From positions 1,353,176 through 1,417,175 of the forward strand of contig OY282444.1 of NCBI GenBank assembly GCA_958296125.1: a stretch of DNA of 64,000 bases, read 5' to 3'. Positions 45,701 to 62,842 of the stretch are shown piece after piece (the first letter of the stretch is position 1; every line of letters begins with the position of its first letter). Source of the DNA: an uncultured Poribacteria bacterium (lineage in GTDB: Bacteria > Poribacteria > WGA-4E > PCPOR2b). The notes beneath the pieces are model-generated. The model was not told where the DNA came from. It worked only from the letters and a program-made list of their open reading frames with translations, and searched no databases. The position numbers and the translations under genes are program-made.

Positions 45701-48190
45701 ATGCAACTGAACTTAATTTTCTCACTGGCGTGTCTCTGCATTGTTGCGAGCGGTTTTGGTCTCCTCGTCCATGCCGCGGAGGATGCACACCCCCACGAAG
45801 CAGCCCTCAAGAACCCTGATGGGACATGGAAGTGGACGAATGCACTTATCCGCGAAACAAGTCCTTACCTGCTTTTGCACGCCCATAATCCGGTCGATTG
45901 GTATCCGTGGGGTCCTGAGGCATTGGAACAGGCAAAGGCTGAAAACAAACCGATTTTCCTTTCTGTGGGTTACTCCACCTGCTACTGGTGTCACGTCATG
46001 GAGCGGAAGGTGTTCTCAAATCCAGAGATAGCCGATCTGATGAATACGTCATTTATTAACATCAAAGTAGACCGGGAAGAACGCCCGGATCTGGATGAGA
46101 TTTACATGACCGCCACCCAAATCATGACGGGATCTGGTGGTTGGCCCAACTCTGTTTTTTTAACGCCTGACCTCCTCCCTTTTTTCGGAGGCACTTATTT
46201 TCCACCAGAGGATAGCCGTGGCCGCCCCGGTTTTCCGAGAGTCTTGAGCGCACTTAATGAGGTGTGGATAAATCAACAGCCGGAGGTCATTGCACAGGCA
46301 GAGAAGATAACGGAAGTTATCAAACAGGCAACGGCTGCCACCCCGGCTTCCATCGGCGAAGCACCGCTGGATCGGAAGCTGATCTCGGCGGCGGTGAAAG
46401 CACTCCAATCGAGGTACGACGCTACATACGGCGGCTTTGGTGGCGCGCCAAAGTTTCCTAGTCCCACGAATCTGGAACTGTTGTTGAGTGAATATCAACG
46501 CGAGCCTTCCAAACCGACGCTTGAGATAGTCACCAACACCCTTGACAAGATGGCGTATGGTGGGATGTATGATCAGATTGGGGGCGGTTTTCACCGTTAC
46601 TCGGTTGATGCCAAATGGCTCGTGCCACACTTTGAGAAGATGTTGTATGACAACGCCCAACTTGCGAAAATCTACCTGCAAGCCTATCAACTGAGGAAAA
46701 ATCCGCTCTACCGACGGGTAGCTGAGGAGATTTTTACGTTCGTTTCGCGAGAGATGACATCTGCACAGGGAGGCTTCTACTCGGCACTTGATGCGGAAGT
46801 AGATGCGGAGGAGGGCAAATCCTACCTCTGGACCAAAGAGCAGATTCAAAAGACTCTTGAGAAAAAGGATGCCAAACTGTTCATGCAGGTTTACGGGGTG
46901 GACAAGGGTCCCAACTTTGAAGGCGGGACCAATATCCCCTACCTTCCCGTCCCAATTTCAAATGTCGCAAAATCGCTTAAAAAATCGGAGGACGACCTCC
47001 ACAGCCAACTTGAACCGCTCAAGGCGAAACTACTCGCGGCGCGGGAGCAACGGAAACAACCCCTGCTCGATACGAAAGTGATCACGAGTTGGAACGGCTT
47101 AATGATTGATGCATTTGCCTACGGCTACGAAGTGCTCGGCGATAAACAGTATCGTGAGGTAGCGGAGAAAGCTGCACGATTTAACCTGAAACACCTCCGG
47201 ACATCCGATGGACAACTGATGCGGACCTACAGGGATGGTATCCCCAAATATAACGGCTACCTTGATGATTATGCCTTCCTCGTTCGTGGTTTGCTAAGTC
47301 TGCATCAGGCAACGGGCGAAACGACTTGGTTGGATGAAGCAAAATCCCTGACCGATACAATGAACCGGCTGTTTTGGGATAATAAAAACGGGGGTTTCTA
47401 CTTCACCCTTGCCAACCAAGAACATCTGGTTGTGCGTACCAAGAATCCTTACGATTCCGCCCTCCCATCGGGGAATGCTGTAGCGGCTAACAACCTGCTC
47501 ACCCTCGCACAGCTCATTGGTGAGAAGGGTTATCTGGATAAAGCGGAAAAAACGCTTCAGAATTTCGCGGGCATGATGAAACAGTCCCCCCGTGCTTTTA
47601 TGCACATGCTTTTCGCTACCAATCGTTATCTTTCAACAGACTGGACGAAAGTTGGAGCGGCACCCCAAGAAGGGGCATCTCAATTTGGCTTGAACAGGGA
47701 GGGAATGAGCGAGATCAACCTCTTTGCACCGCCTAAAGCCCAATCGGTTTTACCTTCAGCGGATGAACTCTTGACGCTTTCGGTGTCCATACTCTCGAAA
47801 GGGGGCATCTCCCCTGAAAGCCCCTTTGATGTGGAGGTGCAACTTGCACTTGCTGAAGGGTGGCATATCAACGCCAATCCCCCTTCGTTGGATCTGTTGA
47901 TTCCGACGACCGTGTCTGTCAGTCCTGATGGGCCCGTCGAAATTTTGTCGGTGACATACCCCAAGGGGAAGCCGTTTTACGCAGATTTCAGCGAGGGACC
48001 AATCTCCATCTATGAAGGAAACATCACGGTCAAGCTGAAACTGAAGTTGAAGCCGGGCGAAACAATCGAAAAAGCGTTTCCGCTGAACGTGGATGTCCGC
48101 TATCAGGCGTGTGATGTACATCGGTGCTTGCCGCCAGCAATTGCAACGATTCCGCTCTGGGCTAACATTTACGAGAAAAGTCACAATTGA
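45701..48190 (+). CDS. Exported YyaL/spermatogenesis-associated-20-like protein fused to a DsbD N-terminal-type domain
   Basis: An 829-residue exported protein. The signal peptide (about 1-26) precedes a thioredoxin-like domain with the redox motif [12 protein letters not shown] (Cys94, Cys97), flanked by [18 protein letters not shown] and [14 protein letters not shown] as in the DUF255 family. Then comes an alpha/alpha-barrel with the segment [20 protein letters not shown] and [20 protein letters not shown], typical of the YyaL N-acylglucosamine-epimerase-like part. The last about 135 residues are a beta-sandwich like the N-terminal domain of the thiol reductase DsbD ([12 protein letters not shown] near the end holds its Cys pair). 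The fusion suggests an envelope thiol-redox role. The partners are unknown. Confidence 0.85.
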
Positions 48191-48275
48191 CATACTTCTG
48201 ACATACTTCGGGGTGAGCGCACGTAAATCGGACGATTTGCCAAGCGGGCCCCTAACCCAATCACAGGAGGTTACC

Positions 48276-49058
48276 ATGGATCTAGGATTAGCAGGAAAGG
48301 TTGCTGTCATCACAGGTGGCAGTGAAGGGATTGGCAAAGGCATCGCCCAACGGCTCTGCGAAGAGGGCGCAAAGGTCGCGATCTGCGCCCGTCGTGAGGA
48401 GGTTTTACAAGAGGCAGCGCAAGAGATTCGTGACGCAACAGGTGGCGAGGTGCTCACTGTCACCGCTGACGTGACAGTTCCTGCAACACTCGAAAACTTT
48501 ATCAACCAAACAGTTGATAAGTTCGGACAGATCGATATTTTGGTCAACAATGCCGGGCGGTCTGCGGGCGGAGATTTTGAACAGGTAACTGATGCGGAAT
48601 GGTACGAAGATCTCGATCTCAAGCTGATGGGAGCCGTGCGCTGTGCGCGGTTGGCTATCCCTCATATGAGGCCAACGGGTGGAGGACGCATCATCAATAT
48701 CACTCACCCCGGCGGCAAACAACCGGGCGCGGGCTCCGTCCCAACTTCCGTCAGTCGAGCGGCAGGCATTGCGATGACAAAAGCGCTCTCCAAAGAATTG
48801 CTCGCTGACAATATCCTTGTCAACACCGTTTGCTTGACCTCAATTAAGAGTGCACAGGGTGAACGCTCTTGGAAGGCGGACGGTTCGCTCGGCACCCTTG
48901 AGGAGTATTGGGAGGCAAGGGGAGCCGAGCACCCGCTTGGCCGCTTGGGTGAGCCCACTGAGGTCGGCGATCTCGTTGCTTTCCTCGTTTCGGATCGGGC
49001 TTCGTACATTACGGGGACAGCGATTAATATCGATGGAGGATTATCAGCAGTTGTTTAG
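48276..49058 (+). CDS. SDR family oxidoreductase lacking the catalytic Tyr and Lys
   Basis: A 260-residue protein of the short-chain dehydrogenase/reductase family. The dinucleotide motif is VAVITGGSEGIGKGIA, with ILVNNAGRSAG for the NNAG box and a C-terminal ITGTAINIDGG. The catalytic YxxxK, which should lie in the helix after the IINITH strand, reads PTSVSRAAGIAMTKALSKEL with Thr and Arg at the Tyr and Lys places. Related SDRs with this change are seen in other bacteria, so it is probably a subfamily feature and the reaction may differ. AGGAGG lies five bases before the ATG at 48276; the longer frame to 48093 overlaps the previous gene and is not used. Confidence 0.9.
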   Translation: MDLGLAGKVAVITGGSEGIGKGIAQRLCEEGAKVAICARREEVLQEAAQEIRDATGGEVLTVTADVTVPATLENFINQTVDKFGQIDILVNNAGRSAGGDFEQVTDAEWYEDLDLKLMGAVRCARLAIPHMRPTGGGRIINITHPGGKQPGAGSVPTSVSRAAGIAMTKALSKELLADNILVNTVCLTSIKSAQGERSWKADGSLGTLEEYWEARGAEHPLGRLGEPTEVGDLVAFLVSDRASYITGTAINIDGGLSAVV

Positions 49059-49214
49059 TAACTTTTGGTGCTAGTTGGTGAGGGTGTTGCTGCCACATCG
49101 TTCAAGAGTTCGTTGGTGCATTGGTTTATTAATGCACTAATGAACCAAATACGTTTTACGTTTCATGTTTCATAGCTATACAGTTCGCTTCAGCTAAGAT
49201 AAGTTTGTCGTCCC

Positions 49215-51188
49215 CTAATCATCAACGACATACCGCAACATCACCCCGAGATCGCCGACAATCCAGCCATTTTTAGCATCTGCCATATAAATCGAGTTCA
49301 GGTTATAGTGGCTCTCGCACCATTGTGGACGCCAATTAGCCCCACCATCAAGGGTACGGATAACCGTGCCTTCGCCACCGACCGCCCAACCCAAGTTCGC
49401 ATTGAGGAAGAAGACACTATTCAGGAAACTTTCCACGTAACTCTTTTGACGTTTCCATGTGTGCCCGCCATCGGTTGTGTGGATAACGAATCCATCAATC
49501 CCAACAACCCAGCCATTTAGTCGGTCTGTAAAGTAAACCCCCGATAACCAGACCTCGCCGAGTTGGGCTTGCAAATCCCATGTTTGACCGCCGTCCCGGG
49601 TGTGAAGAATCACACCACCTTGCCCTACAACCCACCCGGTTTGGGTATCAACGAAGTGGACATCAAAGAGGTGACGGTTGACACTGCTGCGCTGTTTCTG
49701 CCACGTTTTGCCCCCGTTCGCGGTGTGCAAAATCTCTCCGCTGTGACCAATTGCCCATCCATACCGTGAATCAACGAAGGAGACACCGAGGAGGTCATTT
49801 TCCGTATCCGCCTCTTGCTGCGCCCACGTTTTGCCACCATCGGTAGTATGGACAATCGTTCCCCATTCCGCAACGCTCCAGCCAACCTTGTCGTTGATAA
49901 AATGCGTTGACCCAAAACACTCCATCGTTCCGCTATCTTGCGACTGCCAGCGTAACCCACCGTCGTTTGTGCGAAGGACTTCCCCCCGATCGCCCACTGC
50001 ATATCCAATCTTATTGCTGATAAAATGGAGGTCTGTGAGCAGATAGCTGGGTGAGGATTGAAGTCCCCACGTTTTTCCACCGTTTTTCGTATGCCAGATC
50101 GTCCCAAACTCACCGACAGCCCACCCAAGCTGAGGATTGACAAAATGAACACCCAATAAAACGACATCCGCCCCGACCAACTGTGTCGCCCCACCCCGCT
50201 GATGCTTCCACGTCCTTCCACCATCGCCGGTGTGCAAGATGGCACCTAAGTCCCCAACAATCCAGCCATTCTGAGCATCGGCGAAATGGAGCGCATACAG
50301 GAGGAAGGTGTGTAGCGGTTCATCCCCGGTTCTCACCTGCTGACCGTAGTGCTGTTCATGGCGTTTATTTGAGCCTCGCGTTAAATACTCCCAATTCCTG
50401 CCGCCATCTTGTGTGGTAAGCACTGTCCGCTTATCACCGACGATCCAGCCACGATTTTCATCGACAAAGTGGACATCGGACAACTCGTAGCGGACATTCG
50501 TTCTCTGATAAGTCCAGTACCTTCCCCCATCGCGTGTATAATAAGCGTTACCCTGATGGCTAACAGTCCAACCTTGTCGGGAATTGAGAAAATATACACC
50601 TCGCAGTGAATTGTCGCCAATCCCTTCCGACCGATTTTCCCAAGTTTGTCCGCCATTCTGTGTGTACAATACCGTCCCGAAATCGCCGACGACCCAACCT
50701 TCCTGCGTTGAGACAAAGTGAAGATCGAACAGGTTATTATGCGTATTCCCTGATTGCTGTTCCCACCTCTGCCCGCCATTTTCTGTGTACAGGATGACAC
50801 CATTTTCACCGACGATCCACCCGGTGTGGTTGTCGGCAAATCGCACCGCTCGCAGCAGATGGTAAACGCCACTCTGCTGTGGGTGCCATGTAATCCCGCC
50901 ATCCGTTGTGTGGGCAATCACGCTGTCGAACTCCTCTGCGAATGTGCTTCCCGCGTTATTGCCGACTGTCCACCCGGTCTGCTTGTCAATGAAGAATACA
51001 TCGTAGAACCGTGCTTCCCAGTCGGCACGCCGAACAATTTCCCAGCGACCGGGCTTGGGATTTTGATCCCTTGAACACCCAATGACTCCACCGACAAGCA
51101 TCACAATGAGAAATATGAGACCTAGTGTGTGAAACGTGATGTGTGAAACGTGATCAGCTGAGTTTTCGGTCTGCTGATTTGTTATCAA
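49215..51188 (-). CDS. Lipoprotein with 14 YCF48/BNR-type propeller motifs
   Basis: A 657-residue exported lipoprotein (LIFLIVMLVGGVIGC lipobox near residue 38) made of about 14 repeats of the YCF48 photosystem-assembly type. Each has a G-W-x-V-G strand followed by a D/N-G-G-x-x-W box, as in GWIVGENGVILYTENGG and GWVVGDFGTVLYTQNGG. The count was made on the GW-x-VG motifs. Such proteins fold as beta-propellers and act as assembly or binding factors; YCF48 itself helps assemble photosystem II, but this organism shows no sign of photosynthesis here. The start is a TTG at 51188 with AAAGGAGGG eight bases upstream. Residues about 13-20 (HVSHITFH) are encoded by the GTGAAACGTGATGCG-type repeat. 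Confidence 0.85.
   Translation of the reverse strand: MITNQQTENSADHVSHITFHTLGLIFLIVMLVGGVIGCSRDQNPKPGRWEIVRRADWEARFYDVFFIDKQTGWTVGNNAGSTFAEEFDSVIAHTTDGGITWHPQQSGVYHLLRAVRFADNHTGWIVGENGVILYTENGGQRWEQQSGNTHNNLFDLHFVSTQEGWVVGDFGTVLYTQNGGQTWENRSEGIGDNSLRGVYFLNSRQGWTVSHQGNAYYTRDGGRYWTYQRTNVRYELSDVHFVDENRGWIVGDKRTVLTTQDGGRNWEYLTRGSNKRHEQHYGQQVRTGDEPLHTFLLYALHFADAQNGWIVGDLGAILHTGDGGRTWKHQRGGATQLVGADVVLLGVHFVNPQLGWAVGEFGTIWHTKNGGKTWGLQSSPSYLLTDLHFISNKIGYAVGDRGEVLRTNDGGLRWQSQDSGTMECFGSTHFINDKVGWSVAEWGTIVHTTDGGKTWAQQEADTENDLLGVSFVDSRYGWAIGHSGEILHTANGGKTWQKQRSSVNRHLFDVHFVDTQTGWVVGQGGVILHTRDGGQTWDLQAQLGEVWLSGVYFTDRLNGWVVGIDGFVIHTTDGGHTWKRQKSYVESFLNSVFFLNANLGWAVGGEGTVIRTLDGGANWRPQWCESHYNLNSIYMADAKNGWIVGDLGVMLRYVVDD
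51122..51151. repeat. GTGAAACGTGATGTG repeat inside the coding start of the YCF48-like lipoprotein
   Basis: Plus-strand GTGTGTGAAACGTGATGTG and then TGAAACGTGA is an intergenic-type repeat, here in frame and translated on the minus strand as HVSHITFH in the leader of the lipoprotein. Confidence 0.65.
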
Positions 51189-51366
51189 ATTAAAGCCCTC
51201 CTTTGCAAAATAACCTGACAGATTGATGCTAAGCCATCATTTTTCTGCGACGATGCGCCTATCCCATAGGTTTATCCGAGGCGATTGGTTTTCGTGTGAT
51301 TGTTGCGGGGAGAAAATTTCCGATCTCTTTGTGAACGATTTTGTCCGTCAGTTCGTCTTATAAAAT

Positions 51367-52815
51367 ATGCGACATGCAATACAAAATCTCCCTGAACAAA
51401 TTATCCACAATAAGCTATCTAGTATCCAACGTCGAATGCGGATTGACAGCATCTTCCAGAATCTAGCTACATTTAACTTCTGGGGGCTTCTCATCGTTGG
51501 GATATGGCTCACAGTCAACCGATTTTTCCCGTTACCGATACCGGTTGGATTTGTAGTTTCCCTGCCGCTCATCGCCGCGAGCGTTATTGCCGTTGGCTTG
51601 AATCTACTAAGGAAAACAGACCCGTTTGTCGTAGCGCACCTTGTAGATCAACGTCTCAATCTGAAGGAACGCCTCGGCACTGCCCTTGAAGCAATTCGGC
51701 GGAGGGCTACGGACGATTTCGCCATTTTGCAGATTCATGATGCTGCGAGGGTGGCACAAGGGTTGGTCCCCGATGCCGCTGTCTCCTACACGACCCCGCC
51801 AGCCCTCAAATGGCTTCCCATCCCTATGTTACTAATTGGGCTTTCATTTTTCATCCCGCGCATGTATGAAGTCCCCCCGCCCCCAACTATCTCGGAACAT
51901 GCGGCTATTCATGATGCCGCAGCAACGCTTGAACAAGCGGTTAGCGGTCTCGACAACGCAGAACTCTCCAAGCAAGTTGAAGAAACCGTCAAAGCATTAC
52001 AAAACAAGCGTATCGGTGTGCAAGCCGCCCAGACAGAACTCAGCAAGCTCCGTGAAGATGTTGAGGCCCGAAAAAGCCAACTGTCGGAAAATGCAATAGA
52101 TCAGGCGGTTGCAGCCATTTCCACAGTGGGAGAAAACTCCAAACTTCTCAGTGGTGCGGACGCAGGGGAGATTGCGTTAGAACTACAGAAACTGACGGAT
52201 CAGATGGACGAACTGACTGCGGTGCAGCGGGCGGAATTGGATGCGCTACTCAGACAGCTCGCTGAACGGCTTGGGGGCAACCCCGCCGCCAAGAACCTTG
52301 TGGACCAACTAAACGAGATTGAAACAGAGGGAGTCAGTCCTGAGATGCTAGCGAAAATTGCGCGTTCACTGTTAGAGATCGACCGGCAGGCAAAAGACAT
52401 TGCACAGTTGGAAGGGATTTTGGAGGAGATCCGGGCAAGCCGAAAAAATATCGGATTAGCGGGTATCGAAATGGCGCGTAAAACGGGAGGGGTGGCAGGT
52501 AGTGATGGAGGACCGGGCGAGGAATCCGGGACAGGGGAGGCGCGAGGAACGCAGGTTGACGCTATGACTTCAGAGGCGCGCCCCACAGAGGAGCTACGGT
52601 TGAGAGGGGGCACATCGGATTCGCAGGAATTCTCCATAGGCACCACACAAGAGAATCCAAGCGGTGAAGAGGAGCCGGTTTATACGCAATACCAAGAAGT
52701 CTATCTCAACGCGAAACAGGCTTACGCGGAGGCAATGGAAAGGGATGGGATTCCTATGCGGTATCGACAACGGGTTAAGGATTATCTAGATGCCATCGCG
52801 AATACGGGGAAATGA
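51367..52815 (+). CDS. Membrane protein with long coiled-coil region (DUF4175-like)
   Basis: A 482-residue protein with two membrane helices near residues 38-75 (FNFWGLLIVGIWLTV and SLPLIAASVIAVGL) and a third at about 143-160 (WLPIPMLLIGLSFFIP), then a long charged helical region (about 185-380) and a Gly/Thr/Glu-rich tail. The segment AHLVDQRLNLKERLGTALEA resembles the start of DUF4175-type membrane proteins found near MoxR ATPases and VWA proteins. No such neighbours are present here. The function is unknown. No clear ribosome site is seen before the ATG; MRIDSIFQNL at 51436 is a possible later start. Confidence 0.65.
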   Translation: MRHAIQNLPEQIIHNKLSSIQRRMRIDSIFQNLATFNFWGLLIVGIWLTVNRFFPLPIPVGFVVSLPLIAASVIAVGLNLLRKTDPFVVAHLVDQRLNLKERLGTALEAIRRRATDDFAILQIHDAARVAQGLVPDAAVSYTTPPALKWLPIPMLLIGLSFFIPRMYEVPPPPTISEHAAIHDAAATLEQAVSGLDNAELSKQVEETVKALQNKRIGVQAAQTELSKLREDVEARKSQLSENAIDQAVAAISTVGENSKLLSGADAGEIALELQKLTDQMDELTAVQRAELDALLRQLAERLGGNPAAKNLVDQLNEIETEGVSPEMLAKIARSLLEIDRQAKDIAQLEGILEEIRASRKNIGLAGIEMARKTGGVAGSDGGPGEESGTGEARGTQVDAMTSEARPTEELRLRGGTSDSQEFSIGTTQENPSGEEEPVYTQYQEVYLNAKQAYAEAMERDGIPMRYRQRVKDYLDAIANTGK

Positions 52816-55525: not shown

Positions 55526-58500
55526 TTAATGAGAAGGCACCCCCAGATCGGGCAAGTCCTCCACAATCTCCGCGGTCTCCAAGCTAACCGCAATCACCTT
55601 CCCGATAAGTTTAACGATGTACCGCGGGTCATCCTCACGGTTCGGATCGCTGACGAGGCCGCTCCGTTTGTCCGTCTTAATGCGATACTGATCTATCACC
55701 CACTCCAACGCCGATCTATTCCCAAGCCGATAGTCAAACGTCTTTGCGGGTATCCCCTCCAGTGTCAGGAAATCGTTGTATACCAGCTGCGTTTTGTCTT
55801 TGGATAGCTTCATCTTCTCCACGTGCCATAACCCCCTGCCCCGCAAGTGGGGAGAAAGATTGATCGGCACTTCACGGTTTTCGATGAAATGTAGGGGATA
55901 TTCGGATACTTCTTCATAGCCGATGTGGATTTCTCCCAACCGTTGACCCGCTCTAGCAAAGTCCCAAAAATGGGGTGTGTATGGCAGGTGCGGCAGGTCC
56001 CGCTTGAGGTTCGCTTGATACCGCTCTCGATAATCGGGGTGATGTAAGAGGGCATAGACGTAATGGAAGATATCCCACTTAGTGATGGCGTTGTCTCGGT
56101 AATGCGCCCGGAATTGTGCTAATGCCCAATCGGTGACGTTTTCGCGGCGGTTTCCCCCGTCCTCGTCATAGGTGTAGAAGGGGAAGCATTGGGAACCGCT
56201 TTGCGGCAATGTATCAGGAATTTTGTTAATCATTAACGCAAACATCGGCCAAGCAGCACCGACCTTGACCCATATCACCCGATTTTCCGCTTCTGTTTCA
56301 GGCGTAGGGAAGATGGACGGGAGAACAAAAACTCTCTGGTTCATAACGCGGTCAAAGAATAAGTTTGATTTTGCGAAGGGGCGGTAAAGAGATTGTCGGA
56401 TTTTTGTGTCTGCAAATTCTGCAACCTGCCCGTTTCTCAGTTTTTGTTTTAAGGCGGAACTCCAACTGATTTTCAGGTCATCATAAACCACAAAATCATC
56501 AACATTTGCATCCCTATCTCCCCGATGTTTCCACTTAAACACCTGCTCATTGTAGGAGTCAATTGTCCGCTTCATGTTCTCGGCAAGTGCGTTTCGGTTA
56601 AAATTGTAAACCCACGCATCACGGCTAGTCGCGACCCCGCTACTAAATATCTTAAAAATCACATCTGCTGCCTCACCCTTCGCCGCCTTCGCTTTCTTAG
56701 TTCCCATGGGGATAAAAGTCTCAAATTCGGCGTGGAGCCCTTCTGTCAGCCATGTGTAGCGTGTGTCAGGACGAATGGCCCGCCAATCTATATTGCCGAT
56801 ATGTCCGCATTCATTTAGAAAATCGAATTTCTGTTTTTTGTTCCACAAGTCGTCAGTGCGATAGTAAAATATACGGGGCGGGACAGAATTTTCCCCATTA
56901 GTAGTTGGATGATTTATCGCCCGTCCAGTTTTCACAAATAGGTTAATACTCACGCCGACCCGTATCCCGAATACATTGGCATCCGAGACCTTCCCTGGTC
57001 TCGGCACGGACAATCCCTTCCGGGCGTTCCCACCCAAGTCCAGAATGTAAATTATGTCGAAATCGTCTGCGAGATGTTTCCGCATCCCATCAAACGCCAC
57101 AGCGTCAAGAAAACTGTTATTTGTTACGAAAGCGACTATTCCTTGATCCCCTATACGGTCGGAGGCCCATCGAATCGCCTTCACATACGGGTCGGAGAGG
57201 GCCTTTTTATTTGTCGCTTTGGAGTCTTTCGCATAGGTCTCCTTAACTCGTGCATCCATCGTTGGATATTTCCGATTTTTGTTATTGTCGTTTTCGTTGA
57301 CCTGACCGACATTATAGGGCGGATTGCCGATAACCACAAACATCGGTGTCTCCTTCTGGTCCTCAACGCGGCGGGTATTCTCCGGCGCGAACAGCGGCAA
57401 TTGTCGGTTTTCCGCAAGGTCAAACGTATCGACAAGACAGATCCCCTCAAACGGTTGATAGTCTCCGGTTGCCTCGTAAAACTCATGCTCGATGTTCATT
57501 GAGGCGATGTAGTAAGGGAGCAGCATCACCTCGTTGCAGTGGAGTTCGGACTGATACTTATCCTCAAGGGCGGTTGGGCGAATTTCGCGCATTGCCCGCA
57601 CAATGAAATTACCCGTCCCTACAAACGGGTCGATGATGTGAACATCCGGAGAAGATAAGGAACGCAGCCCCCCGTTCCCTACACGCTCAAATTCCGTCTT
57701 TAATAGCTGATCAACACTTCTCACCATGAAATCGACAATCGGTTGCGGTGTGTAAACCACTCCGTGCGTATCGGCAATCTCCACCGAAAAACCTTGAAAA
57801 AACTGCTCGTAAACCGTGTTGAGGAAACTCTGTTTTTGGGAGAAGTCGTCAATGGCTGCAGCGGTGCGCTCAACTGCGACGTAAAAAGGGTCAAGGCTAC
57901 GCAGAAAATCTTCGCGGCTGAAAGCGTGAGACATCAGCGCGGTGATGACGGTCTCAATTTCGCGGGCGATAACATTGCGGCGGGTAAATTCGGAGTTGCT
58001 AAACACGGTTCGGAAAATCCGCTCGGTCAAGAGGTGTTGAATGAGCATCTCCTCGACAGCGGCTTCGGTGAGGTTGGGGTTGATCGATTGACGGCATTTC
58101 TCATGGAAGGCTGTAAAGGCGGTGGCAAACTGACGGTTCGTCCCCCGTTCCGTTTCGATCAATTCTGCCAAGCCGTTCCCAAGCGCGGGCACTCTGTCTT
58201 TGAACTGCGAAACCGCCGCCTCCCATTCCGTGTATTCTTGCGGACGGTGAGAAAAGAAGGTTTCGAGGGTATGTATCAGTTGGGTCGGGTCGGTCAGGTC
58301 GGCATCGAGCGTCTGCTGATTGTTTTGCCAAAGGATGGCGCGGTGTGGGGTTTGGAAAAGGAGGTTGTCGCGGGGGTAGCCTGCTGCAAACTTGCGGAGC
58401 ATTTCGGCTGGCAGGTCGTCGTGGATATCCTTTGCCTCCCAATAGCCGTGGGGTAACCGGAAATTGTCGATCAATGCACCATCAACGACAATCCGCTTGT

Positions 58501-58705
58501 TTCGACTGGCCCCCTTATCAAGGGGGATTATTGAATGTTCGGGCACCAGGATCCAGTTAAATTGCTTCCCACAGTGTTCAAGCAGGGTTTGGAATGCCGA
58601 GCGGACAGCGGTTTCGTGGGAGACACCGATTGACTCGAAACGTTGTAGGGATTCGTAGTAGGCTTTGACTGGTTTGTGGGTTGATTTGAGATTGAGGGTT
58701 TTCAT
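55526..58705 (-). CDS. Single-chain restriction-modification enzyme (type IIG/ISP-like nuclease-methylase)
   Basis: A 1059-residue enzyme. The N-terminal nuclease-like part has DGALIDNFRLPHGYWEAKD, an Asp then Glu-Ala-Lys PD-(D/E)xK pattern. The central N6-adenine methylase has VHIIDPFVGTGNFIVRAM (motif I) and VVIGNPPYNVGQV (motif IV NPPY). The rest is a target-recognition region to the end (with DWALAQFRAHYRDNAIT near the last part). Both cut and methylate functions would be in one chain, as in type IIG and the methylase-nuclease core of ISP enzymes; no helicase domain is present. The start at 58705 matches the family segment MKTLNLKSTHKPV. It sits on a promoter that once served a sulfatase gene. 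Confidence 0.85.
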   Translation of the reverse strand: MKTLNLKSTHKPVKAYYESLQRFESIGVSHETAVRSAFQTLLEHCGKQFNWILVPEHSIIPLDKGASRNKRIVVDGALIDNFRLPHGYWEAKDIHDDLPAEMLRKFAAGYPRDNLLFQTPHRAILWQNNQQTLDADLTDPTQLIHTLETFFSHRPQEYTEWEAAVSQFKDRVPALGNGLAELIETERGTNRQFATAFTAFHEKCRQSINPNLTEAAVEEMLIQHLLTERIFRTVFSNSEFTRRNVIAREIETVITALMSHAFSREDFLRSLDPFYVAVERTAAAIDDFSQKQSFLNTVYEQFFQGFSVEIADTHGVVYTPQPIVDFMVRSVDQLLKTEFERVGNGGLRSLSSPDVHIIDPFVGTGNFIVRAMREIRPTALEDKYQSELHCNEVMLLPYYIASMNIEHEFYEATGDYQPFEGICLVDTFDLAENRQLPLFAPENTRRVEDQKETPMFVVIGNPPYNVGQVNENDNNKNRKYPTMDARVKETYAKDSKATNKKALSDPYVKAIRWASDRIGDQGIVAFVTNNSFLDAVAFDGMRKHLADDFDIIYILDLGGNARKGLSVPRPGKVSDANVFGIRVGVSINLFVKTGRAINHPTTNGENSVPPRIFYYRTDDLWNKKQKFDFLNECGHIGNIDWRAIRPDTRYTWLTEGLHAEFETFIPMGTKKAKAAKGEAADVIFKIFSSGVATSRDAWVYNFNRNALAENMKRTIDSYNEQVFKWKHRGDRDANVDDFVVYDDLKISWSSALKQKLRNGQVAEFADTKIRQSLYRPFAKSNLFFDRVMNQRVFVLPSIFPTPETEAENRVIWVKVGAAWPMFALMINKIPDTLPQSGSQCFPFYTYDEDGGNRRENVTDWALAQFRAHYRDNAITKWDIFHYVYALLHHPDYRERYQANLKRDLPHLPYTPHFWDFARAGQRLGEIHIGYEEVSEYPLHFIENREVPINLSPHLRGRGLWHVEKMKLSKDKTQLVYNDFLTLEGIPAKTFDYRLGNRSALEWVIDQYRIKTDKRSGLVSDPNREDDPRYIVKLIGKVIAVSLETAEIVEDLPDLGVPSH

Positions 58706-58733
58706 GTGAAATATTGTCGAAATATAATAAATT

Positions 58734-58886
58734 CGGGATGGTTGGCTCACCTTCTCCCCAAGCATTAGTGAACACCGTGCTATTTTTCCGCAATTGATCC
58801 AGGTGGGGGGTATCAACATAATCTTCCCAAGTGTGATCTACCACATCTGCTCGAAGCGTATCGCAGCAGATGACAATCGTGTTCAT
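58734..58886 (-). pseudogene. Truncated sulfatase (N-terminal 51 codons)
   Basis: The frame starts MNTIVICCDTLRADVVDHTW with a ribosome site AAGGAG and reads like an arylsulfatase start: metal-binding CCDTLRAD, YVDTPHLDQLRKNSTVFTNA and GEPTIP. The similarity ends at about 58734, where the sequence turns into the leader of the restriction-modification gene; the catalytic Cys-x-Pro-x-Arg site is missing. I therefore read it as a remnant cut by insertion or deletion at the island edge. Confidence 0.7.
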
Positions 58887-59141: not shown

Positions 59142-59169
59142 TTGACATTATGCACCGAATGGGTATAAT
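59142..59169 (+). promoter_or_regulatory. Consensus promoter of the SnoaL-selenoprotein gene
   Basis: TTGACA (59142-59147), a 16-base spacer and TATAAT (59164-59169), with the start of transcription near 59176 and the ATG at 59209. Confidence 0.75.
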
Positions 59170-59208
59170 TGGGGAACCTGATATTAAAATTAAGATAGGA
59201 GCTAAACT

Positions 59209-60318
59209 ATGAAACAACCGCTAACAGTAACAAAACTGACCTACCTCTTGATAGTGGGAGCACTCCTGATCGGAATTTGCCCGCTGATTGGTGTGTCAGC
59301 TGCAGAGGCAGAGGATGCCGGAACAGCAGCAGACCGAGCAGCTGTCACTCGCATCTACGAGGAGGTCTTTAATACGGGAGAGCTGGGGCAAGTAGACACG
59401 CTAATTGCCGCCGAATATATTGACCATAATCCAATAGGCCCAGGGGGTAAATCTGGCATAGAAGGATTTAAACAGACTGTAAGAGCGTTACGCTTTGCCT
59501 TTCCCGACCTGCGCTTCACCGTTGAGGAGATGATTGTCAACGGGGATAAGGTAGTGACTCGTACCACAATGCAAGGTACTCATCAGAATAACTTTATGCA
59601 GGTTGATCCGACTGATAAGCAAGTAACAGTGACAGGATTTGACATCTATCGGATTGCCGATGGGGTCGTTGCGGAACGCTGGGGTACACTCGATGGGCTA
59701 ACGCTCATGCAACAGATGGCTGTCGTCGATCCGATGGCGTGGCAATATACGCTGCTTGGTGCGCTAAACCAAGCGGAACGTAAACCGTTGATTAACCAGA
59801 TGAGCAAGACTGCCCAAAAGAAGAGAGATGTTTTAAGGGGCGATCGACGACCCGTAACGGAGCTCGTTCATCTGGATCAATTGATGCATCAGTTCCAAGC
59901 GGACGGGGGTAGTGTTCGCGTGGTGGCTCTGCTTTCCCCTGGCTGACCGAAATGTCGTCGGGGGGTCTCCGAAATAATAAAGATGTTTGAAAGAGTTCCG
60001 GATGATCGGCTGCGTGCTTACCTCATCTGGCAACCGATTCTTAATAGTGATAATCGGGTTTCCGCAGAGAGACGCGCTAGGGAATTTACCCATGAAAAAT
60101 TTACGCATTTCTGGGATAGTACTAGTGCCACCGGTAACCTTTGGAAGGACGTGCTCCGCCTAAACGACACCGCATGGGATGTCTATCTATTGTATAGCGG
60201 GTCTGCCGAGTGGACAACCCATCCACCCTCGCCGGATCTCTGGTTTCCCCAACTGCACCATGCGACACGCGCACGATTTGAGGTGAAAACCAAACAACTC
60301 CTCCGAGAGATTCCGTAG
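59209..60318 (+). CDS. Exported SnoaL-like and thioredoxin-like fusion selenoprotein, in-frame UGA read as Sec
   Basis: Reading the UGA at 59944-59946 as selenocysteine gives a 369-residue protein with Sec246. It has a signal peptide (about 1-34), then a SnoaL-like/ester-cyclase-type domain (about 40-165) with VFNTGELGQVDTLIAAEYID, ALRFAFPDLRFTVEEMIVNG and VTGFDIYRIADGVVAERWG. A linker follows, then a thioredoxin-like domain: VRVVALLSPGUPKCRRGV (UxxC), DDRLRAYLIWQPILNSD, HFWDSTSATG, AWDVYLLYSGSAEW and a final helix, TAG stop. The strand before UxxC and the LIW strand after it fit a thioredoxin fold. The promoter and AGGAG before the ATG are clear, and the next gene starts 16 bases later. The substrate and partner are unknown. 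Confidence 0.85.
59958..59972 (+). promoter_or_regulatory. Candidate SECIS hairpin of the SnoaL-Trx gene
   Basis: Twelve bases after the UGA the sequence can fold CGGGG/CUCCG (with one G-U pair) around an apical GGU loop at 59964-59966, plus one U-A pair below. A GG-U apical loop is typical of bacterial SECIS. The lower stem is weak when drawn by eye. Confidence 0.45.
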
Positions 60319-60334
60319 GCAAATCCATGTAACG

Positions 60335-62842
60335 ATGAATCCCTATTTTCTTTCTGTTGCTCTGCTAGCCGGTTCGATCATCGCTTATGAGATTACGCTG
60401 GTACGCTTATTTTCAATAGCGCAATGGCATCATTTCGCGCACATGATTATCAGTCTAGCGTTGCTTGGGTTCGGTGCCAGTGGGACGGCGATTTCGCTGA
60501 CGCAACGTTGGCTGATGGGGAGTCGGTCAAAATCCGACGGAGTCGGGCAACGCTTCCGCAATATCTATACGACTTGTGGACTTCTCTATTCGATCAGCGT
60601 CGTTGGGTGTTTTGCGCTGAACCAATATGTGCCGTTCAATCCGCTGATGTTGGTCTGGCAGCCGAGTCAGGTGCTATCGCTTTTCGCGTTGTATCTCATT
60701 TTATCGCTCCCGTTTTTCTTCGGTGCAGTCTGCATTGGTCTGGCACTACTCCAATTCGCGGGAAACGTCAACCGTCTCTATTTTTTTGATCTCTTTGGTT
60801 CTGGTATCGGGGCGTTAGGCATCATTGTTACGATGTATCTGATTCCCCCGGCACAAAACCTGACTCTCGTCTCAGCAGTCGGGTTTTGTGCTGTCCTAAT
60901 CGCTAATTGGGGGAGTTGGAGAACGCGGCCTTGGCGGCGAGTTGTCCTGATAACTGGATTCGCCGCTACGTTTATCGGCTATCTTTTATTCAACCCCGTA
61001 ACAATAAGGATCTCACCCTACAAAGGGTTGAGCAGTGTACTGAATTTTCCGGATGCACAAATCCTGAATAAGCGACATAGTCCCCTCGGCATGTTGCATG
61101 TGGTTCACAGTGAGTTAATCCGTGCGGTGCCGGGGTTGAGCCTAAAGGCGCAGCACCCGGTGCAGCCACAGTTGGGCTTATTCACCGATGCCGACGCAAT
61201 GACAGCGATAACCGATTTCGGAGGCGACCTATCAAAACTGGGGTATCTTGGAGATACAACGTCGGCGGTGGCATATCACCTCATTGAACCGCCCCGCGTG
61301 CTGGTCTTGGGTGCCGGCGGCGGTGGGGATGTCCTCAACGCGCTCTACCATGGCGCGGTATCGGTTGATGCAGTGGAGTTAAATCCACAAGTGCTTGAAC
61401 TGGTGGCGAGAGAACACAAGGATTTTGCCGGGCAGATTTACGCGCCAGATTCAACCTATCCGGTACAGGTTTATGTCGCAGAAGCCCGTGGATTTGTGAG
61501 ATCGACAACGAAGCGGTATGATCTCATCCAGATTGCACTGCTTGATTCCGTAAGCGCGTCCGCTGCGGGCACCCACGCCCTGAGTGAAAGTTACCTCTAT
61601 ACCGTTGAGTCGATCGCAGACCTGTATCAACACTTGATGCCTGGGGGGATTGTTTCGATCACGCGTTGGCTGAAAACCCCGCCGCGTGACATGATTCGGT
61701 TATTTGCAACAACAGTTGAGGTATTAGAACAGATTGACGGCGCACTCCCCGCTCAACAGTTGGCGATGATCCGCGGCTGGCGGACCGGCACGTTGTTGAT
61801 AAAGAAAGGGGCCTTCCACGCAGCGGACCGAGCCGCGATTCAGGACTTTTGCCGCGAACGTTCTTTCGATGTGGCGTACTACCCCCAAATGCCGGAGGAG
61901 AAAGCCAATCGTTACAATCAGTTGGCGGAGCCGATCTACTTTCGGGCTGCACAAGCGATTCTGTCCAACGATCGGAAACAATTTTATGAAGGGTATCCCT
62001 TCAATATCCGCCCCACGACCGATAATCGCCCGTATTTCTTTCAATTCTTGCGTTTTGATTCGCTCATTCAGATGGTTCGGACGGTTGGCAGAAGTGCCAT
62101 CCCGTTCATCGAGTGGGGCTATCTACTCCTGATCGTAACACTAATCCAAGCGGTTTTGGCGGGGCTGGTCTTGATCCTGATCCCGCTCTTTTTCCTGAAG
62201 CGGGAAGCTACCTCACCTACCGCTCACAACTCGCGTTTCACCATTTGGCGGGTGTTCAGTTACTTTTTGAGCTTAGGGGTTGGTTTTATGTTCATCGAGA
62301 TGTCATTCATCCAGAAGTTTCTCCTGTTACTTGCGAACCCAACGTATGCGGTCGCGGTTGTGCTGTGTGCGTTCCTTCTCTTTGCGGGATTGGGCAGCCT
62401 TTTCTCGCTGAGATTGAGGAGGATCCGGAGGCTACAACGACATCCAACGCTCGTTGCTATCGGTATGTTATCGGGCCTCGCACTGATTGACCTACAACTG
62501 CTTCCCCCGATTTTTCACTACTTTCTCGCGAGCTCCGACATTCTGAAGATTGCCGTATCAGTTGGACTGATTGCACCTTTAGCGTTTTTCATGGGAATGC
62601 CCTTCCCATTGGGGATAGATTGGTTGCAAAGACACCATCCAAATCTGATCGCTTGGGCGTGGGGCATCAACGGATATGCATCAGTCGTGAGTGCGATTCT
62701 GGCGACCTGTCTCGCTATTGCGTTTGGATTTAACATCGTGATTCTTCTGGCGATCGGGATCTACCTCATCGGTGGGTATGTCCACTTCCGAATGGATCGG
62801 GAGACCGCACCCTATCGCCCTAGTCTCTCTGATAAAAGTTGA
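60335..62842 (+). CDS. Polytopic membrane protein with spermidine-synthase-like methyltransferase-fold domain
   Basis: An 835-residue fusion. About seven N-terminal membrane helices (for example SVALLAGSIIAYEITLVRLF, ILSLPFFFGAVCIGLALLQF) are followed by a spermine/spermidine-synthase-like domain with the nucleotide-type loop VLVLGAGGGGDVLNALYHGA, VDAVELNPQVLELV, RYDLIQIALLDSVS and LYQHLMPGGIVSITRW. Then come several further membrane helices (LLLIVTLIQAVLAGLVLIL, FMFIEMSFIQKFLLLLANPT). Such membrane-bound synthase-like proteins are common in uncultured bacteria and their substrate is unknown. The acidic decarboxylated-AdoMet-binding residues of true spermidine synthases are not convincing here. 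It follows the selenoprotein gene by 16 bases, so both share a transcript. Confidence 0.85.
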   Translation: MNPYFLSVALLAGSIIAYEITLVRLFSIAQWHHFAHMIISLALLGFGASGTAISLTQRWLMGSRSKSDGVGQRFRNIYTTCGLLYSISVVGCFALNQYVPFNPLMLVWQPSQVLSLFALYLILSLPFFFGAVCIGLALLQFAGNVNRLYFFDLFGSGIGALGIIVTMYLIPPAQNLTLVSAVGFCAVLIANWGSWRTRPWRRVVLITGFAATFIGYLLFNPVTIRISPYKGLSSVLNFPDAQILNKRHSPLGMLHVVHSELIRAVPGLSLKAQHPVQPQLGLFTDADAMTAITDFGGDLSKLGYLGDTTSAVAYHLIEPPRVLVLGAGGGGDVLNALYHGAVSVDAVELNPQVLELVAREHKDFAGQIYAPDSTYPVQVYVAEARGFVRSTTKRYDLIQIALLDSVSASAAGTHALSESYLYTVESIADLYQHLMPGGIVSITRWLKTPPRDMIRLFATTVEVLEQIDGALPAQQLAMIRGWRTGTLLIKKGAFHAADRAAIQDFCRERSFDVAYYPQMPEEKANRYNQLAEPIYFRAAQAILSNDRKQFYEGYPFNIRPTTDNRPYFFQFLRFDSLIQMVRTVGRSAIPFIEWGYLLLIVTLIQAVLAGLVLILIPLFFLKREATSPTAHNSRFTIWRVFSYFLSLGVGFMFIEMSFIQKFLLLLANPTYAVAVVLCAFLLFAGLGSLFSLRLRRIRRLQRHPTLVAIGMLSGLALIDLQLLPPIFHYFLASSDILKIAVSVGLIAPLAFFMGMPFPLGIDWLQRHHPNLIAWAWGINGYASVVSAILATCLAIAFGFNIVILLAIGIYLIGGYVHFRMDRETAPYRPSLSDKS

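Follow-up and report, generated by a model that had tools for sequence, protein, structure and literature searches.

The window analysed here is a stretch of 64,000 nucleotides from a Candidatus Poribacteria genome that is 98.85% complete, with 5.16 Mb on one contig. Candidatus Poribacteria are sponge-associated bacteria. Two open frames of the window (59209-59946 and 59983-60318) lie in the same frame with a single in-frame TGA between them (59944-59946), and the coordinates, frame and codon given in an initial annotation of this DNA were all confirmed. Read-through translation joins the two frames into one gene and places the UGA at codon 246 in the context RVVALLSPG-U-PKC-RRGVSEI, within the LLSPG-U-PKC segment previously proposed. 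The gene ends in a normal TAG (60316-60318), 16 bases ahead of the ATG of the next gene at 60335. The consensus promoter and ribosome site that had been claimed upstream are also present, and are kept within the genus. The features of the locus are as follows.

59142..59169, + strand: sigma-70-type promoter, TTGACA-16 nt-TATAAT (12 of 12 consensus positions; both hexamers kept in 6 of 6 congeneric genomes)
59197..59201, + strand: ribosome-binding site AGGAG, 7 nt 5′ of the ATG (from the sequence; conserved in 6 of 6 congeneric genomes)
59209..60318, + strand: predicted selenoprotein gene, 369 residues including Sec246, stop TAG (read-through translation; same TGA in 8 homologs)
59209..59310, + strand: hydrophobic N-terminus resembling a signal peptide, residues 1 to ~34 (by eye; similar in all homologs)
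59341..59715, + strand: SnoaL-like domain, residues 45-169 (Pfam PF07366, E 2.5e-37; PF12680, E 6.1e-22; PDB relatives)
59866..60315, + strand: putative thioredoxin-like domain carrying the UPKC motif, residues ~220-369 (no family in Pfam or NCBIfam; beta-alpha-beta-alpha-beta; weak Foldseek matches)
59944..59946, + strand: UGA codon for selenocysteine 246 (TGA in 8 of 8 homologs)
59947..59979, + strand: stretch without synonymous change, coding plus SECIS, codons +1 to +11 (9 of 9 versus 6 of 82 columns)
59958..59972, + strand: SECIS hairpin UCGGGG-GGU-CUCCGA with a 6-bp stem and a GGU loop, 17 nt after the UGA (fold)

A homolog search covering 85 genomes of the phylum recovered eight homologs, six from the genus of the window and two from another family of the same order, the latter 44-45% identical across the C-terminal domain. 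Each of the eight contains exactly one internal TGA, always in the same column, together with the full SnoaL and C-terminal architecture. The earlier proposal that homologs should show Cys or Sec at position 246 is thus answered by UGA in all eight, and the fusion of the C-terminal domain to SnoaL, about which the initial annotation had also asked, recurs in every one of them. Among these homologs from the 85 genomes there is neither a Cys form nor a copy ending at the UGA. Conservation of an in-frame UGA as Sec or Cys, a mark of bacterial selenoproteins, is found here as TGA in 8/8. Four additional loci (L010-L013) are not independent of four of the eight homologs, as the lengths of their contigs are identical.

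The distribution of the fusion is patchy, as it occurs in 2 of 22 genera. A looser profile search across the phylum returned chance-level fragments only, and the same genome encodes no second gene with a UPxCRxxG motif. Beyond the phylum, genome contigs were scanned once for exact peptide patterns, and viral contigs and plasmids were searched as well; viral contigs gave no homologs and plasmids gave only sub-threshold DsbA-like fragments. With the reach outside the phylum limited in this way, distant or Cys-containing relatives may exist elsewhere. Related UxxC domains with a WDxYLLY-like segment may occur in other phyla.

The sequence 3′ of the TGA evolves as coding sequence. Within the genus, dN/dS of the window gene in this part is about 0.05-0.17, indicating purifying selection, and between genera it is 0.21-0.30, where dS is near saturation. 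An in-frame stop is all that would favor a pseudogene or a sequencing error, in the form of a nonsense mutation or a miscalled base; this explanation was rejected and is extremely improbable, given that eight genomes of two genera carry the same TGA and remain under purifying selection downstream of it. The locus could also encode two products, with a SnoaL protein terminating at the UGA and a second, small one initiating at 59983, where the window does have an ATG. No other codons of the gene are as conserved as those between the UGA and this ATG, which leaves next to no room for such an arrangement. The ATG at 59983 was rejected as a second start since other homologs have CTG, CTA, ATC or GTC in its place, and an independent second frame was rejected since two homologs lack any ATG, GTG or TTG in the 40 codons after the UGA.

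Conservation immediately downstream of the UGA extends to synonymous positions. In codons +1 to +11, all nine invariant columns with a degenerate residue use a single codon in all eight genomes, while elsewhere in the gene only 6 of 82 invariant-residue columns do so (Fisher p = 6.4e-9, an indicative value as the eight genomes are related). The frozen stretch reads UGACCGxxAUGUCGUCGGGGGGUCUCCGAAAUAA. Taken together, the TGA column shared by 8/8 homologs, a dN/dS well below 1 and the synonymous freeze form a pattern that is more than chance.

The initial annotation had suggested looking for a bacterial SECIS just 3′ of the UGA, and a conserved hairpin is indeed located there. Its energy is -8.1 kcal/mol for 43 nt and its loop starts at +21 from the U of the UGA, a position matching that of the hairpin in selD. 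The published bSECIS model specifies a stem of 4-16 bp, a loop of 3-9 nt with G in its first two bases, a spacing of 16-37 nt and an MFE of at most -7.5, and the hairpin lies within each of these limits as given in the available part of the source (6 bp, GGU, 17 nt, -8.1 kcal/mol; PMC13188914). The same geometry, with a stem of at least 6 bp, is nevertheless found at 15% of all TGAs of the window, and the hairpin energy is no better than that of shuffled sequence (z about 0). An Rfam search of the region matched no known element, and covariation offers no test because the stretch is nearly invariant. Taken alone, the hairpin is weak evidence. Since neither its energy nor its geometry is discriminating, the case for the SECIS relies on synonymous conservation, and the comparison across genomes establishes that the frozen stretch holds a conserved SECIS.

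The host genome encodes the complete selenocysteine machinery, all four genes of which had been named as worth seeking. A tRNA-Sec gene (selC, 47917-48006; 76.6 bits, anticodon TCA) adjoins selB (48137-50029; 370 bits), which is followed by selA (50108-51463; 601 bits) to give a selC-selB-selA cluster. The selD gene is located elsewhere in the genome (370 bits) and carries its own in-frame TGA. In selD (L025 1522-1565; genome 1302552-1303472) this UGA is followed by a hairpin of 7 bp whose loop starts at the same distance from the UGA as in the gene studied here, so SelD is itself a selenoprotein. Across the phylum selB is nearly universal, scoring above cut-off in 76 of 85 genomes, and a 2017 sponge metagenome paper reports that most bins of symbionts have SelA and SelB (PMC5649159).

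These data also bear on the identity of the inserted residue. UGA could be read as Trp or another residue, or be passed by unspecific read-through, a reading to which the lack of a Cys homolog that would anchor the column among the eight found lends some room. It is very improbable in a genome that has the whole Sec system and a selD with a UGA of its own, when the synonymous freeze falls exactly where the SECIS must be and the UGA occupies position 1 of a UxxC motif. The case that this gene encodes a selenoprotein, as judged from the sequences compared, is very strong. The findings named beforehand as speaking against it, including homologs that stop at the UGA and a genome lacking selB and tRNA-Sec, were all looked for, and none was encountered.

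The N-terminal segment resembles an export signal. By eye, it combines a positive residue, a hydrophobic core and an A-x-A near VSA-AEA, has no lipobox, and is common to the homologs; the protein is thus probably exported. Past this hydrophobic leader, Sec246 and Cys249 are the sole selenol or thiol residues of the mature protein in 8/8 proteins.

The domain that follows the leader had been described as SnoaL-like, and at the level of sequence this identity is certain. The match to PF07366 (SnoaL-like polyketide cyclase / ester cyclase) scores 127.9 bits against a cut-off of 28.4 and covers profile positions 2-125 of 126, so that the domain corresponds to this family over the full profile length. 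Its solved relatives in the PDB include IdmH (6hnn), TsrD and others. These are stand-alone domains, whereas here SnoaL sits between an export-type leader and the Sec redox domain to which it is fused. Relatives of the SnoaL fold are often without cyclase activity. Elsewhere in the phylum SnoaL is arranged differently, as repeats or combined with an esterase, and the redox domain is missing from the loci that could be read. For example, in distant Poribacteria (L057, L058, L072), tandem SnoaL repeats are found in large secreted-type proteins of about 830-1055 residues with a sorting-like tail at the C-terminus, and in some of them the repeats are joined to an esterase-like domain.

The thioredoxin-like fold that had been proposed for the C-terminal domain is borne out in part. 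The UPKC motif follows a predicted strand as expected; no profile scores above cut-off, and the structural model is of low confidence. A search of NCBIfam with the C-terminal ~150 residues found no family even at E 10, and the best Pfam match, Thioredoxin_4, reaches 12.2 bits against a cut-off of 23.2, leaving no thioredoxin-fold family above cut-off. A profile of the eight homologs matches the DsbA-like protein 3gyk, a 27 kDa outer membrane protein, with E 0.005 over the strand-CxxC-helix segment; 3gyk differs in that only about 50 residues align, it has no SnoaL, and it contains Cys instead of Sec. The AlphaFold model of the domain (pLDDT 54, pTM 0.52) suggests a strand-helix-strand-helix-strand order and puts Sec at the N-terminal end of its first helix. 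In this low-confidence model, strand 235-242, UPKC 246-249 and helix 247-262 would place UxxC as in the thioredoxin superfamily, and the full-length model is too poor to be used beyond secondary structure. The Foldseek matches listed all belong to the thioredoxin superfamily (glutathione peroxidases, thioredoxins, DsbE/TlpA), with TM about 0.4 for the pLDDT 54 model and none reaching E 0.001. After the motif, WQPxLxSDxR and WDVYxLY are invariant across both genera and matched by no library family. The residue before WDVY is no clear candidate for the thioredoxin cis-proline, being Pro in only one of the two genera and Ala in the second.

A thioredoxin-like redox role, in which Sec would be the nucleophile and Cys249 would resolve, is likely on the basis of this motif and model. 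DsbA-like, DsbG-like and thiol:disulfide interchange selenoproteins share the UxxC after a beta strand, as listed in Table 1 of the available part of a recent review (PMC13188914). A thioredoxin-type fold pattern and export would probably be common to these proteins and the present one, which differs by the absence of an above-cut-off Pfam or NCBIfam match and by its N-terminal SnoaL. It is distinctly unlikely that the C-terminal domain of the selenoprotein is mainly a peroxidase or a metal or metalloid binder with SnoaL as an accessory. Such a role would agree with the presence of glutathione peroxidases among the best Foldseek hits to this low-confidence model, and many UxxC selenoproteins in the part of the review available have no tested function (PMC13188914); a UxxC whose resolving Cys lies three residues further along typifies disulfide exchange, however, and the quality of the model is too low for thioredoxin subfamilies to be told apart.

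The most probable reading, to which a probability of roughly 0.8 is assigned, is that the gene encodes an exported selenoprotein whose thioredoxin-like domain is a selenol-based thiol oxidoreductase, with SnoaL most likely serving as a pocket or dimer interface. The hairpin 17 nt 3′ of the UGA would recruit SelB with Sec-tRNA(Sec), allowing translation to pass codon 246, and the N-terminus would then direct the protein out of the cytoplasm. Outside, the C-terminal domain would act as the oxidoreductase through the Sec246 nucleophile and the resolving Cys249. The SnoaL domain would constitute the rest of the enzyme; most likely it would offer a pocket for binding, or an interface for dimerization, through which a small hydrophobic substrate or partner comes close to the active site. 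A further proposal, tentative and rather unlikely, is a Sec-only family whose exported SnoaL domain captures a small molecule for reduction or oxidation by the Sec domain fused to it, making a bifunctional enzyme with chemistry new to either fold.

The initial annotation had called the protein likely undescribed, which holds for the sources consulted, namely Pfam, NCBIfam, the PDB and open-access papers, and the claim extends as far as these sources. No open-access paper that brings together SnoaL and selenoprotein was found, nor did the literature search find a selenoproteome study of the Poribacteria phylum. A SnoaL-Sec family is absent from the available part of the 2026 review of prokaryotic selenoproteins (PMC13188914), and the part available of the 2017 sponge metagenome paper mentions no protein of this type (PMC5649159). 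Standard annotation would cut the protein to SnoaL and drop the redox half, making the fusion invisible in databases. The gene represents a selenoprotein family and a domain architecture that are both new, neither being present in the curated lists searched; it uses known machinery and involves no new mechanism. It is also a clear-cut example with which to ask why Sec, with no Cys variant, persists in a probably exported redox enzyme.

Downstream of the selenoprotein gene, beginning 16 bases 3′ of it, 60335-62842 (+) encodes an 835-residue membrane protein with a sub-threshold spermidine-synthase-like domain. This neighbor is kept in the genus (L010-L013) and is replaced by a different one in the other genus, so no operon partner points to a substrate. 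It is followed by a Protein-L-isoaspartate O-methyltransferase (PF01135; 62879-63601, +) with an export-like leader, which is unusual for this repair enzyme. On the other side of the selenoprotein gene, a sulfatase gene cut down to its first 51 codons (58734-58886, -) adjoins a Type ISP restriction-modification gene (55526-58733, -). The sulfatase is complete (468 codons) in four congeneric genomes, in two of which (L010, L013) the Type ISP homolog then follows. From these sequences, it looks as if a deletion of about 1.25 kb joined the sulfatase remnant to the Type ISP gene.
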